Positions 4,264-38,049 of a stretch of DNA of 38,727 nucleotides are shown here, piece by piece. The position numbers and the translations under genes are program-made. Numbering within the stretch: position 1 is the stretch's first letter; each line of letters opens with the position of its first letter. Location: the NCBI GenBank assembly GCA_002790655.1, contig PFVO01000007.1, positions 1 through 38,727 of the forward strand, read 5' to 3'. The notes below the pieces were generated by a model. That model was not told the DNA's origin, made no database searches, and saw only the letters and a program-made list of their open reading frames with translations. The stretch is from Candidatus Moranbacteria bacterium CG_4_9_14_3_um_filter_44_28 (GTDB lineage: Bacteria; Patescibacteriota; Minisyncoccia; Moranbacterales; UBA11712).

Positions 4264-4356
4264 TTTTACGAATTACGAATACGCTTCGCTTTACGAATAT
4301 ACCAATTACGAATTTGCTGTATTCGTATATTCGTACAGATTCGTAATTCGTAAAGA
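4264..4356. repeat. TACGAATTACGAAT repeat family E, copy 2
   Basis: TTTACGAATTACGAAT... and ...ATTCGTATATTCGTACAGATTCGTAATTCGTAAAG inverted arms. Confidence 0.85.
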
Positions 4357-10409: not shown

Positions 10410-10417
10410 GAAAAGTC

Positions 10418-10524
10418 TCTACGAATTACGAATCAAATACGAATATACGAATGAATGTTCAGGCTTTAATCGCATGAAATAAGATTGATTCGTATATTCG
10501 TACAAAATTCGTAGTTCGTAGAGA
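10418..10524. repeat. TACGAATTACGAAT repeat family E, copy 3
   Basis: CTCTACGAATTACGAATCAAATACGAATATACGAAT ... ATTCGTATATTCGTACAAAATTCGTAGTTCGTAGAG. Confidence 0.88.
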
Positions 10525-15085: not shown

Positions 15086-15532
15086 TTACTTAAGATTAAC
15101 TGTTGCTCCCGCTTCTTCCAGTTTTTTCTTTATTTCCTCCGCTTCGGCTTTGGCAACTTTTTCCTTGATTACCTTCGGAGCGGCGTCGACAAGGTCTTTG
15201 GCGTCTTTCAGGCCTTTGCCGGTAATTTCGCGGACAGCCTTGATGACGTTGATTTTGGCGTCGCCCGCCGCGGCAAGTTCGATGTCGAACTCGCTTTTTT
15301 CGGGAGCCGCTTCACCGGCCTCCGCGCCAGCCGCCCCGCCAGCGGCGGGGCCAATTGCCATAACTGGAGCGGCCGCGCTCACGCCGAATTTTTCTTCGAG
15401 AACTTTCACCAGCTCCGAAAGCTCAAGAACAGACATTTTTTCAATCTGTTCAACAAGAGCTTTGAATTTCTCTGGTACTTCGACCGGCTTTTTTTCCTCG
15501 TCAGTCGTTTCATTTTTTGCTTCTTTGGTCAT
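15086..15532 (-). CDS. rplL: 50S ribosomal protein L7/L12
   Basis: [13 protein letters not shown]...[71 protein letters not shown]. Confidence 0.98.
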
Positions 15533-15569
15533 AATAATTGAATTAAAAATTACGAATTATGAATTATGA

Positions 15570-15656
15570 GGTGAAAATATGGTATTTCGAGAGTATTGCG
15601 TTTTGGACTGCTCTGCAGGACAGGTTAGCCTACTCGAGAAATATCATATTTTCACC
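15570..15656. ncRNA. Structured element K, copy A (between rplJ and rplL)
   Basis: 19-bp outer helix, tandem G.A pairs, 5-bp helix, internal loop TATTGCGTTTTG/CAGGTTAGCCTA; covaries with copy B. Confidence 0.6.
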
Positions 15657-15663
15657 GATTTTA

Positions 15664-16179
15664 TTACTTGGTATCTCCAATTACCTTCAACACCCCGACC
15701 AAATTTCTCAAATTTCCCGCTAAAGCGTTTACAAATCCCGAAACCGGCGCATTGATCAAACCGACCAGCTTCGAGAGCAATTCCCCGCGCGAAAGCAGTT
15801 TGGAGAGCGCAATAACTTCTTCGCCGGAAATAACCTTGTTTTCCAACACGCCCTGCAAAATTTTGAAATTTTCATTTTCTTTTGAAAAATTTGCCAGAAC
15901 TTTCGCGGCCGATACTTCGTCGGCATTGCCGATCGCCACTCCGATTTGCCCTTCCATATTTTTCACATCTGTTTCGATGCCGGCGTTCTTGAAAGCCAAC
16001 TCGATCAATTTTTTCTTGGTGATTTTGTAGCTCGAGTCATTCTTTCGCAGTTCATCGCGAAGATTTTTCATCTTGGCCACACTTGTTCCGGTATAATCAG
16101 AAAAAATCATAACCTTTCCGGCCTTTATTTTTTCGGACAAATCTTTAACCAAATTCTCCTTTTGAGATCTTGATAACAT
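15664..16179 (-). CDS. rplJ: 50S ribosomal protein L10
   Basis: MLSRSQKENLVKDLSEKIKAGKVMIFSDYTGTSVAKMKNLRDELRKNDSSYKITKKKLIELAFK. Confidence 0.97.
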   Translation of the reverse strand: MLSRSQKENLVKDLSEKIKAGKVMIFSDYTGTSVAKMKNLRDELRKNDSSYKITKKKLIELAFKNAGIETDVKNMEGQIGVAIGNADEVSAAKVLANFSKENENFKILQGVLENKVISGEEVIALSKLLSRGELLSKLVGLINAPVSGFVNALAGNLRNLVGVLKVIGDTK

Positions 16180-16184
16180 AAAAG

Positions 16185-16262
16185 CCTGCTTCCCACAGAC
16201 TTGAAATCACGGCAAATGCCGCCGCTTCCTAACCAGGACTTATGTTTATGCCTGATTTCTGT
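16185..16262 (-). promoter_or_regulatory. Probable ribosomal L10 leader
   Basis: Position immediately 5' of rplJ; reverse strand CCACAGAAATCAGGCATAAACATAAGTCCTGGTTAGGAAGCGGCGGCATTTGCCGTGATTTCAAGTCTGTGG has a closing helix CCACAGA/TCTGTGG and inner GCGGCATTTGCCG hairpin. Confidence 0.65.
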
Positions 16263-16291
16263 GGAAAGTTTTATTCAATTTCAACTTCACT

Positions 16292-16320
16292 ATTCTATAA
16301 AATCCCGTAAATTATGTCAA
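16292..16320 (-). promoter_or_regulatory. Sigma-70-type promoter of rplJL
   Basis: Reverse strand TTGACA-17 nt-TAGAAT. Confidence 0.75.
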
Positions 16321-16328
16321 TAGACCGA

Positions 16329-16416
16329 GGCAAGAAATTAGAATTTTGAAAGTATCGCGTTCTGCCCGACTTCGTCGGGGCAGGTTAGCCTACTTGAAAA
16401 ATTTTAATTTCTTGCC
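16329..16416. ncRNA. Structured element K, copy B (between mltG stop and the rplJ promoter)
   Basis: Same architecture as 15570..15656 with a different outer-stem sequence; conserved GTATCGCGTTCTG/CAGGTTAGCCTAC. Confidence 0.6.
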
Positions 16417-16430
16417 TTATTTTTTCAACG

Positions 16431-17477
16431 CTATAACCCATATTTCACCTTATTCTCCTCATGCTCCTCGAGTGTCTTTGAAAAAATCGTTTTTCCGGTT
16501 TCGGGGTCGGTGAGAAAATAATTATAATCAGTTTCTTTCGGATAAACCGCCGCCAGAATCGAATTCATTCCCGGATTATTTATCGGACCCGGGGGAAGGC
16601 CTTTATTGATATAAGTATTATAGGGCGATGGCGTCCGCGTGTCCTCATAAGAATACTGCTTTTTTTCTCTTCCTAAAACATAGGCGATAGTGGCGCAACT
16701 CTGAAGCGGCCTACCCTGATCGATTCGCTTCCAAAAAATTCCGCTTACTATCTTCATATCTTCGGGAGTTTTCACTTCTTTTTCAAGAATGCTCGCCATT
16801 GTCACAATCTCATAAATAGTTTTCTCTCTCTTCTCTATCTCAACTCTCATATCTCTTGTTAGTTTCTCATCAAAATTAAGAAGCATCCGATTGATAATAT
16901 CCGCCGCGCTGGCCTCCCTGAAAAAAATATACGTGTCGGGAAATAAATAACCTTCAAGACTGGCCTTGGCCGGCTTATCTTTCAGAAAATTATAGTCTGA
17001 CTTAACTCCGCAACTGCATTTAACTTTCTCCAAGAATCCATTTTTTTCAAAGCCTTTTTCCTTCAAGACTTCTTCCATTCTTTTGGCGCTGGTTCCTTCC
17101 GGAAAAGTTACTTTGATTTCATTCGGAACGACTTCACCGATTGAGATCACCTGCACAATTTCCGGAATGGTCATCGAACCGCGAAGCTCGTACTTTCCAG
17201 CTTGAAGTTTCTCCCGGCTTCCGGTTTTCCAGATGTAATAATCGAAATACAAATCATTTTCGATAAGTTGCGCTTCTTTGAGCCTTTCCCCGATTTCCTT
17301 CACGCCCTCTCCATCTCTGATTTCGAAAGCTTGGGAAATATTTCCAGTGCCGTGCGAAAAGTACACTTGGCGGTGAAACCAGTATCCAAGAAGCAAAACG
17401 ATGGCCAAAAAAACAAAACCTTTTTTGAAAAAAGATTTTGGCCGCAGTTTATCGTTTTCGATCCGGATATAGTGCAC
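16431..17477 (-). CDS. mltG: Endolytic transglycosylase MltG (YceG-like)
   Basis: LEGYLFPDTYIF, MASILEKEV, SGIFWKRIDQGRPLQSCATIAYVLG, SPYNTYINKGLPPGPINNPG. Confidence 0.95.
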   Translation of the reverse strand: MHYIRIENDKLRPKSFFKKGFVFLAIVLLLGYWFHRQVYFSHGTGNISQAFEIRDGEGVKEIGERLKEAQLIENDLYFDYYIWKTGSREKLQAGKYELRGSMTIPEIVQVISIGEVVPNEIKVTFPEGTSAKRMEEVLKEKGFEKNGFLEKVKCSCGVKSDYNFLKDKPAKASLEGYLFPDTYIFFREASAADIINRMLLNFDEKLTRDMRVEIEKREKTIYEIVTMASILEKEVKTPEDMKIVSGIFWKRIDQGRPLQSCATIAYVLGREKKQYSYEDTRTPSPYNTYINKGLPPGPINNPGMNSILAAVYPKETDYNYFLTDPETGKTIFSKTLEEHEENKVKYGL

Positions 17478-21286: not shown

Positions 21287-21979
21287 TCACCAATCCTTTA
21301 CTTCAAGAGCGTTTCTCGCCGCTTCTCTCTGCGCCTGCTGTTTTGAAACTCCTTCTCCCTGCGCCACTTCCTCGTCTTCAAGATAAACCCCGACAATAAA
21401 TTTTTTGTCGTGGTCGGGACCCGATTCGGAAAGAACCCGGTAATTCGGAGTGATTCCCACCCGGGCTTGGGCTTCTTCCTGAAAGTTGGATTTCGGGTCA
21501 ATATAGAGTTTGCTTTTTATAACCTCGTCAAGATGAATCAAGACACTTTCTGAAATAAATTTCTTCGCGGCTCCGTAACCTTTGTCAAGATAAACCGCGC
21601 CAATTATCGCTTCGAGCGCGTTCGCCAAAAGATAATCCCTTGCCCGTCCGGTATCTTTGGCTTCTCCCCGGCTCATAAGAAGAAAATTTTCCACCCTCAG
21701 CCCGCGGGAAACATTTGAGAGCATGTCCTTGTTCACCAGCGCCGCCCGCCAGTTGGTAAGTTCTCCTTCCGGGTTGGGAAAATTTTGATATAAATGCTCC
21801 GTCACCACCAGCTCTAAAACCGCGTCTCCAAAAAATTCAAGGCGCTCATTATGATCCAACTTATAGCTCCTATTCTCATTCAGATACGACCGATGCGTGA
21901 CGGCAGTCCGAAGCAGATCGAGATTTTTGAATTTTACTTTTGTTTTCTTTTCCAGATCTTCGATGTTTTTTACAGCCAT
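21287..21979 (-). CDS. rnc: Ribonuclease III
   Basis: HNERLEFFGDAVLELVVTEHLY, dsRBD at C-terminus. Confidence 0.97.
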   Translation of the reverse strand: MAVKNIEDLEKKTKVKFKNLDLLRTAVTHRSYLNENRSYKLDHNERLEFFGDAVLELVVTEHLYQNFPNPEGELTNWRAALVNKDMLSNVSRGLRVENFLLMSRGEAKDTGRARDYLLANALEAIIGAVYLDKGYGAAKKFISESVLIHLDEVIKSKLYIDPKSNFQEEAQARVGITPNYRVLSESGPDHDKKFIVGVYLEDEEVAQGEGVSKQQAQREAARNALEVKDW

Positions 21980-31840: not shown

Positions 31841-31851
31841 ATTATTCTTTA

Positions 31852-31939
31852 CGAAATACGAAACTAAACGAAATTACGAAATTATGCAAAAATATTGACT
31901 AGTGGTTTTCGTATTTCGAAATTTTCGTAATTCGTAAAA
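31852..31939. repeat. TACGAAATACGAAA repeat family E, copy 4 (variant)
   Basis: CTTTACGAAATACGAAAC ... TTTTCGTAATTCGTAAAAG between a gene start and the dnaJ stop. Confidence 0.75.
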
Positions 31940-37246: not shown

Positions 37247-38017
37247 TCAAAAATGTATTCGTATATTTGTAATAGATTCGTAATTCGTAAAGAATATCGC
37301 AATCACCGCCGCTCCTCCCAGCAACTTCTTCATATACTGAATCAGCGACTTGTTTTTCGCGTAGCGCATCCTTTTGGGCCCAATGAGGGCCAGAATTCCT
37401 TTTTCGCCGCTCTTGGTTTTGTAGGGAGAGATTATCATTGAACAATTGGAAATTTCCTTGATCGGATTTTCCTTGCCGATGAAAATTTTTATTTCATTGT
37501 CTTTGAGATTTTTGACGAGTTTATCAACCCGCTCATCAATGAAGTCCAGCGTTTCCGCCAGCCGGCACAAGTCATCCATTTCCCGAAACTCCGGCTCGTC
37601 GAGAAGTTCTTTCATCCCGAAGTCATAAAATTCGTCTTTCACTCCGCTAATTGCCAGATTGCCGGAAAGACTGGAAAGCAGTTTTGCCGCCGTGCGAGTG
37701 AGCCGCGTATTTTTCGCTTTGAGTTTCAAAAGTTCCGCCTGCAGTTTTTTTTGCTCGGCTTTCGTGAGGTTTTTGTCAGGCATAATATGCTCGACAAAAT
37801 AACGGTATCCTTCGTCCGTCGGAATCCGCCCCGCGCTGGTGTGGGGTTGAAACAAATATCCTGCGTCTTCAAGCTCGTTCATTTCGGCGCGGATCGTCGC
37901 CGAACTCAAATCGAAATCATATTCTTTCGCAATATGCTTCGACCCGACCGGCACAGCCGTTTCGGTGTATTCTTTCACGACAACGGAAAGCAAATTTTTC
38001 TGGCGATCTGTCAACAT
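37247..38017 (-). CDS. hrcA: Heat-inducible transcription repressor HrcA
   Basis: MLTDRQKNLLSVVVKEYTETAVPVGSKHIAKEYDFDLSSATIRAEMNELEDAGYLFQPHTSAGRIPTDEGYRYFVE; LALIGPKRMRYAK; CIRCE upstream. Confidence 0.95.
   Translation of the reverse strand: MLTDRQKNLLSVVVKEYTETAVPVGSKHIAKEYDFDLSSATIRAEMNELEDAGYLFQPHTSAGRIPTDEGYRYFVEHIMPDKNLTKAEQKKLQAELLKLKAKNTRLTRTAAKLLSSLSGNLAISGVKDEFYDFGMKELLDEPEFREMDDLCRLAETLDFIDERVDKLVKNLKDNEIKIFIGKENPIKEISNCSMIISPYKTKSGEKGILALIGPKRMRYAKNKSLIQYMKKLLGGAAVIAIFFTNYESITNIRIHF
37253..37292. repeat. TACGAATTACGAAT repeat family E, copy 5 (single arm), encoding the HrcA C-terminus
   Basis: Reverse strand TTCTTTACGAATTACGAATCTATTACAAATATACGAATACA. Confidence 0.85.
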
Positions 38018-38049
38018 TCAATGTTGGGGAAACCCTAACATTGAATGTT
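38013..38049 (-). promoter_or_regulatory. hrcA: 13-bp inverted repeat covering the hrcA start codon
   Basis: AACATTCAATGTT...AACATTGAATGTT. Confidence 0.8.

Follow-up and report, generated by a model that had tools for sequence, protein, structure and literature searches.

The closest described counterparts of the elements considered here are small hairpin repeats that lie between bacterial genes. The REP, BIME and REPIN repeats of the RAYT (TnpA_REP) system are imperfect intergenic hairpins, present in many copies and with a variable apical part, that are placed mostly near stop codons between co-directional genes (PMC3733652). The REP features used for comparison in this work are taken from PMC3733652 and PMC6006769. 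ERIC, Correia (NEMIS), BOX and RU-3 repeats are hairpins of ~100 nt in transcribed intergenic regions, where orientation can matter, and are probably mobilised non-autonomously. Cleavage after transcription has been proposed for ERIC and Correia repeats, for ERIC in an orientation-dependent manner (PMC3049150, PMC2229807). Integron attC sites, which also lie between genes, are imperfect hairpins of variable sequence and conserved structure whose folded strand is antisense, and the RNA families of Rfam combine covarying structure with conserved internal loops.

The hairpin family described here resembles each of these systems in part. As in REPs, the copies are imperfect intergenic hairpins with a variable apical part, mostly near stop codons between co-directional genes, and the minus-strand core carries GTAG at the base of an imperfect hairpin (GTAG GC TAA CCTG...CAGAACGC). 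Unlike REPs, the element is 88 rather than 20-40 nt long, occurs in only 1-11 copies, varies in its stems by compensatory change, and has no cognate transposase that could be found, one carrier genome (G006) being without Y1_Tnp. In GTAG REPs, a hairpin of 20-40 nt carries GTAG or GTGG in unpaired form at its 5′ foot, whereas the minus-strand GTAG is here paired within a 5-bp helix of an 88-nt hairpin. In size and setting the present element comes closest to ERIC, Correia and BOX (PMC3049150, PMC2229807), yet those repeats have conserved ends, whereas it has variable terminal arms and a conserved centre, and neither a target duplication nor a fixed terminal inverted repeat could be recognised in it. 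The conserved terminal inverted repeats that define MITEs are likewise missing, as the arms differ between copies. Integron attC sites differ in that the conserved part of the element is central, not terminal, and in that its flanking genes are housekeeping genes; inspection of 33 copies found no RYYYAAC / GTTRRRY boxes. The comparison with Rfam 15 proposed in a first-pass annotation of the sequence matched no known family: at gathering score only three tRNAs were found in the window, and at E <= 10 over 15500-16500 nothing credible. A literature search that omitted most subscription journals turned up no paper on an element of this sort in these bacteria, and within the papers searched small intergenic repeats of this kind appear undescribed in Patescibacteria.

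The window, the whole stretch of 38,727 nucleotides analysed here, constitutes contig C14 of a Ca. Moraniibacteriota genome (G000) of 0.79 Mb. The first-pass annotation had reported two hairpins in it, and both were found at those coordinates by sequence and fold: copy 1 at 15570..15656 and copy 2 at 16329..16416, both on the + strand, with covariance model scores of 92.7 and 96.3 bits. The neighbouring genes are on the minus strand. Copy 1 lies between rplJ (L10; 15664..16179; stop 15664) and its downstream gene rplL (L7/L12; 15086..15532; start 15532), two ORFs named by sequence inspection, and an rplJ orthologue is present in all eight family genomes. Copy 2 lies between its upstream gene mltG (YceG; 16431..17477; Pfam PF02618, E 9.5e-82), with a stop codon at 16431, and a good putative rplJ promoter (TTGACA...TATAGAAT). 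Because copy 2 is upstream of this promoter, it stands where the mltG transcript ends and not between co-transcribed genes. The helices end 7 nt from the rplJ stop codon and 14 nt from that of mltG, in keeping with the earlier estimate of about 15 nt at most.

The rplJ leader (window 16180-16290, minus strand) is itself conserved across the family as TTTCCGCAGAA..GGGC..CCCAACGAGGAAA..TCTGCGGA, partly with a T run after it. It matches neither the Rfam L10 leader nor any other Rfam family, and is probably a divergent ribosomal-protein autoregulatory leader.

On the + strand, the fold of each copy is one 88-nt hairpin, with energies of -44.4 kcal/mol (copy 1, z = -7.9) and -47.4 kcal/mol (copy 2, z = -8.1) that none of 200 dinucleotide shuffles equalled. 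The minus strand folds less stably, at -32.8 and -38.9 kcal/mol, or ~9 to 12 kcal/mol weaker. In copy 1, the 5′ arm of the outer stem (15570..15588) pairs with the 3′ arm (15638..15656) by sequence and fold. The GA strands of a tandem G.A step follow (15589-15590 / 15636-15637) and continue into a 5-bp helix, GAGTA on the 5′ side (15589..15595 with its GA) and TACTC on the 3′ side (15631..15637 with its GA). Inside it are the conserved core strands, TTGCGTTTTG (15596..15605) and CAGGTTAGCC (15621..15630), which enclose a variable apical hairpin (15606..15620). Copy 2 repeats this order, with outer arms at 16329..16347 and 16398..16416, GA strands at 16348-16349 / 16396-16397, the AAGTA strand with its GA at 16348..16354, TACTT and GA at 16391..16397, core strands TCGCGTTCTG (16355..16364) and CAGGTTAGCC (16381..16390), and an apical hairpin at 16365..16380.

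The same plan, read on the + strand, describes the whole family of ~88-90 nt elements. The outer stem is usually 18-22 bp and private in sequence to each copy, and in several copies has a bulge or mismatch ~5 bp from its inner end. The tandem G.A step is usual (GA/GA exact in 21 of 31 copies as scored by script), and a minority of copies, copy 1 among them, repeat the GA/GA step at the base of the element. The core is near-invariant, GTATYGCGT...AGCCTAC, its strands TATYGCGT and AGCCTA forming asymmetric internal loops. Three core variants occur (GCGTTYTG...CAGGTTAGCC, GCGTTAG...CCAGCC and GCGTGNG...TAGCC), and in one copy (L120) an internal loop holds an extra helix.

A hairpin alone is not distinctive here, because long inverted repeats are common in these AT-rich genomes; the core served for finding further copies, whose absence the first-pass annotation had named as grounds for rejecting a selected structure. 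With one mismatch allowed, CAGGTTAGCCTA occurs at 10 places in this genome versus 1 for a reversed control. All ten places sit in the same hairpin, with loops and pairing preserved, and eight are on contigs other than the window. A covariance model built from these ten copies (R1) recovered them at 84.6 to 100.5 bits, together with one divergent copy. Among the seven other genomes of the family sample, which holds eight genomes, one per species, R1 gave 1-11 matches in six and none in G003; some of these matches report one copy a second time, on its opposite strand, and the model's E-values are rough.

Beyond the family, R1 had no match in 29 genomes from other families of the order and, under stricter filters, none among 384 genomes sampled from the phylum except in its own genome. 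A wider model (R2), run on 132 genomes of the order, gave one match in the 124 outside the family. That match (G443, 37 bits) is a simple AT-rich hairpin lacking the core and was set aside as spurious; a viral contig match (L126) without arms was also discarded. A pattern search of GTDB contigs returned three records only, all Moraniibacteriota and corresponding to G002, G004 and G006. Since R1 found nothing elsewhere and the sole R2 match beyond the family lacks the core, the element is restricted, as far as tested, to one taxonomic family of tiny uncultured bacteria.

Two copies alone are little proof of a selected structure, and the larger set gives stronger ground than the first-pass annotation had for its claim of variable stems with retained pairing around an invariant core, a claim now borne out. 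Across the ten copies of the window's genome, in an alignment not fitted to the model, 94.9% of pair cells are paired and 23 of 35 pairs show two-sided changes. Across 26 aligned copies the values are 94.4% and 29 of 35, in an alignment that was fitted to the model and so favours structure. Neither level was reached in any of 500 shuffles, which ignore kinship among the copies, and the pairing signal was lost when partner columns were slid by 1 to 3.

The outer stems of the 26 copies also reveal which strand is structured. Read on the + strand, they contain 422 Watson-Crick pairs, 28 G.T and 1 A.C. Given that symmetric DNA properties alone would yield similar numbers in the two wobble classes, it is the + strand that is held to pairing rules, as had been proposed earlier from the tandem G.A step. 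In mRNA of the flanking genes, the same G.T wobbles are A.C mismatches, and pyrimidine mismatches take the place of the tandem G.A step. The wobble count is compatible with RNA and single-stranded DNA alike. The further suggestion that a transcript may run opposite to the flanking genes found no such footing: the mean best sigma-70 match on the + strand is 7.73 versus 7.65 in shuffled sequence, with no enrichment, and the antisense orientation is a general rule of the family. As no promoter signal was found and the orientation is a family rule, explanations by single-stranded DNA or other events at the DNA level may apply.

The genomic setting is broader than rplJ, rplL and mltG, the genes named in the first-pass annotation. 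The elements fill gaps between co-directional genes at ~20 different gene pairs, including ligA-gatC, frr-rseP, lysS-serS, infB-rbfA, secD-secF, mreB-mreC, trxA-trxB, thyA-folA, rplJ-rplL, an M16 peptidase gene and others, named partly by Pfam and partly by inspection. At ~18 of 20 sites, counted from ORF calls and inspection, the + strand is antisense to both flanking genes, so that the strand on which pairing is kept is the template strand of the host operon. Two sites are exceptions. At dksA-lspA the copies, which are divergent, are in sense orientation in two genera. At mreB-glycosyltransferase the core is antisense in G005 and sense in G000; because arms and flanks correspond between the two genomes, the core is, by this comparison of sequences, inverted in place within conserved arms. 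The next start codon usually lies 7-21 nt past the helix, and at one site (L019) the stop codon of the upstream gene lies in the element. Features of intrinsic terminators are missing, the outer stems being AT-rich and the mRNA strand having no U run after the helix. A reading as a displaced Shine-Dalgarno sequence was dropped, as most genes in these genomes are without one anyway.

Occupancy varies between the eight genomes at mltG-rplJ, rplJ-rplL, thyA-folA and trxA-trxB. The mltG-rplJ element is present in G000 only, and in G002, G003, G004 and G006 mltG directly adjoins the promoter; copy 2 would thus be either a gain in the G000 lineage or the survivor of several losses elsewhere. Between rplJ and rplL, G000 and G001 have elements with similar arms and different core variants, G005 has a scrambled remnant, G002 a left-arm remnant only, and G004 and G006 have none. 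The trxA-trxB element is present in five genomes of four genera, and at thyA-folA the arms are 97% identical between G000 and G006 with differing immediate flanks. Arm likeness follows the site (permutation p 0.025), and core likeness does not do so significantly (p 0.15). An apparent homogenisation of the core by genome was discarded, as it rests on the ten G000 copies and vanishes without them. Comparison of occupied with empty sites showed no target-site duplication, a weak test, as the empty sites come from other species. In the thyA-folA gap of G007 (L074) and G005 (L075), another palindrome, ACTCGCGAATGAGGAGCGAATAAAA...TTAGCGAGT, stands in the element's place.

The explanation preferred here, tentatively and at slightly less than an even chance, is that these are lineage-specific small intercistronic hairpin repeats, akin to REP, ERIC and BOX, that spread at the DNA level and were partly retained. 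Such a repeat accounts for the multiple copies, the gains and losses, the remnants and the inversion, and selection of a + strand hairpin (28 G.T to 1 A.C) fits a single-stranded substrate of one strand. The element would have spread as a non-autonomous unit, its single-stranded hairpin serving as the substrate of a DNA-processing enzyme and its core as the recognition motif; a Y1/HUH-type transposase is the obvious, though unproven, candidate. Insertions between co-transcribed genes, in the orientation that spares the mRNA the stronger fold, may have been almost the only ones to survive, and counter-selection of insertions that place that fold in the mRNA would produce the orientation rule. 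Mobility alone has a counterpoint: copies kept in place over genera, as at trxA-trxB, with matched stem changes, argue for selection in place. The hairpins probably began as small mobile repeats that now lie between genes of the same operon, and their retention with matched changes suggests use after insertion. Copies kept for long, at trxA-trxB, thyA-folA and rplJ-rplL, may in addition have come to shape the intercistronic mRNA.

A possible, though on balance doubtful, alternative is that the hairpin acts in cis within the operon transcript, as a processing or stability site for RNase III or another nuclease, or as an uncoupler of translation. Such an mRNA processing element accounts best for the operon position, with its single fixed orientation at ~18 of 20 sites between co-directional genes and its short distance to the next start codon. 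The mRNA strand also folds stably at the energies given above, copies are retained at trxA-trxB and thyA-folA, the window has an RNase III gene (21287-21979, named by inspection), and ERIC and Correia provide precedents for cleavage after transcription (PMC3049150, PMC2229807). The wobbles, however, are on the wrong strand, with 28 that are mismatched in mRNA for 1 of the opposite kind, the tandem G.A step is there reduced to pyrimidine mismatches, and copy 2 is upstream of the putative rplJ promoter.

It is rather unlikely that the hairpins form a structured nucleic-acid element of a new class, under in-place selection on the operon template strand, in which a lineage-specific factor would read the GTATYGCGT...AGCCTAC core, as single-stranded DNA or antisense RNA, and thereby control intercistronic expression or genome mobility in Moranbacteria.

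The family is an unusually clean case in which stems diverge by matched changes at fixed sites and one strand alone is held to pairing rules; for that reason the long-standing question of whether repeats of this kind serve as single-stranded DNA substrates or as RNA signals is directly testable by comparing the strands.

That the copies are genes for small antisense RNAs, transcribed from the + strand and bound to a protein through the core, is improbable. The pairing, the G.U wobbles and the tandem G.A step are all on that strand, and the extra helix in the L120 copy shows that one internal loop tolerates an insertion. Against this, the sequence upstream is the start of another gene and has no sigma-70 signal, there is no consistent terminator, and the dksA-lspA copies are in sense orientation. 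Quasi-palindrome correction perfects palindromes without selection, and a neutral origin of the matched changes by template switching during replication would suit the DNA-level palindrome instability revealed by remnants and inversion, but it is very improbable given that internal mismatches (tandem G.A, asymmetric loops) are preserved and not corrected, that the 28 to 1 wobble bias requires a strand-specific cause, and that the core is near-invariant across genera.

The first-pass annotation had listed a match to a transposon end among the findings that would count against it. The element does behave like a small mobile repeat, although no transposase could be linked with it. Genes for Y1_Tnp are present in seven of the eight family genomes, the exception being G006, which has ~10 elements and no Y1 match at 90% completeness. 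An element lies within 1.5 kb of a Y1 gene at one of 30 Y1 loci (contig C20 of G000), where a GTAG hairpin of another kind flanks the gene. As the cognate transposase, Y1_Tnp is suggestive at a single locus, where it has a GTAG hairpin of its own, and G006 speaks against it. In G000 every place of the 3′ core belongs to a full element, and no larger autonomous version turned up there.

Several other features were seen in the course of this search. The Y1_Tnp gene on C20 (L119:2300-3060) is of RAYT type, with GTAGAGACGC...GCGTCTCTAC hairpins in its flanks and interior, a REPtron-like arrangement of the classic kind, here in a reduced genome. Beside it on the + strand (L119:1900-2300), a strong promoter-like sequence (TTGACA-17-TAAACT) precedes one hairpin element and a stretch of ~190 nt with complementary ends and a closing T run; this has no Rfam match and is a possible unannotated noncoding RNA. 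Paralogues of Y1_Tnp of ~220 aa with the motif EYYHIxNRGxDKR number about five to seven per genome in G001, G002, G004, G005 and G007 (L089-L117); they are absent from G003 and G006 and have no hairpin element nearby. A short palindrome, AACATTCAATGTT(A/T)GGG...CCCTAACATTGAATGTT, found at window 38013-38049, L136:388 and L184:9309, recurs in G000 and G005 and is another small repeat family. Inverted stretches of the TTACGAATTACGAAT type, at window 4265-4354, 10416-10524 and 31841-31932, recur in many intergenic gaps of the family genomes.
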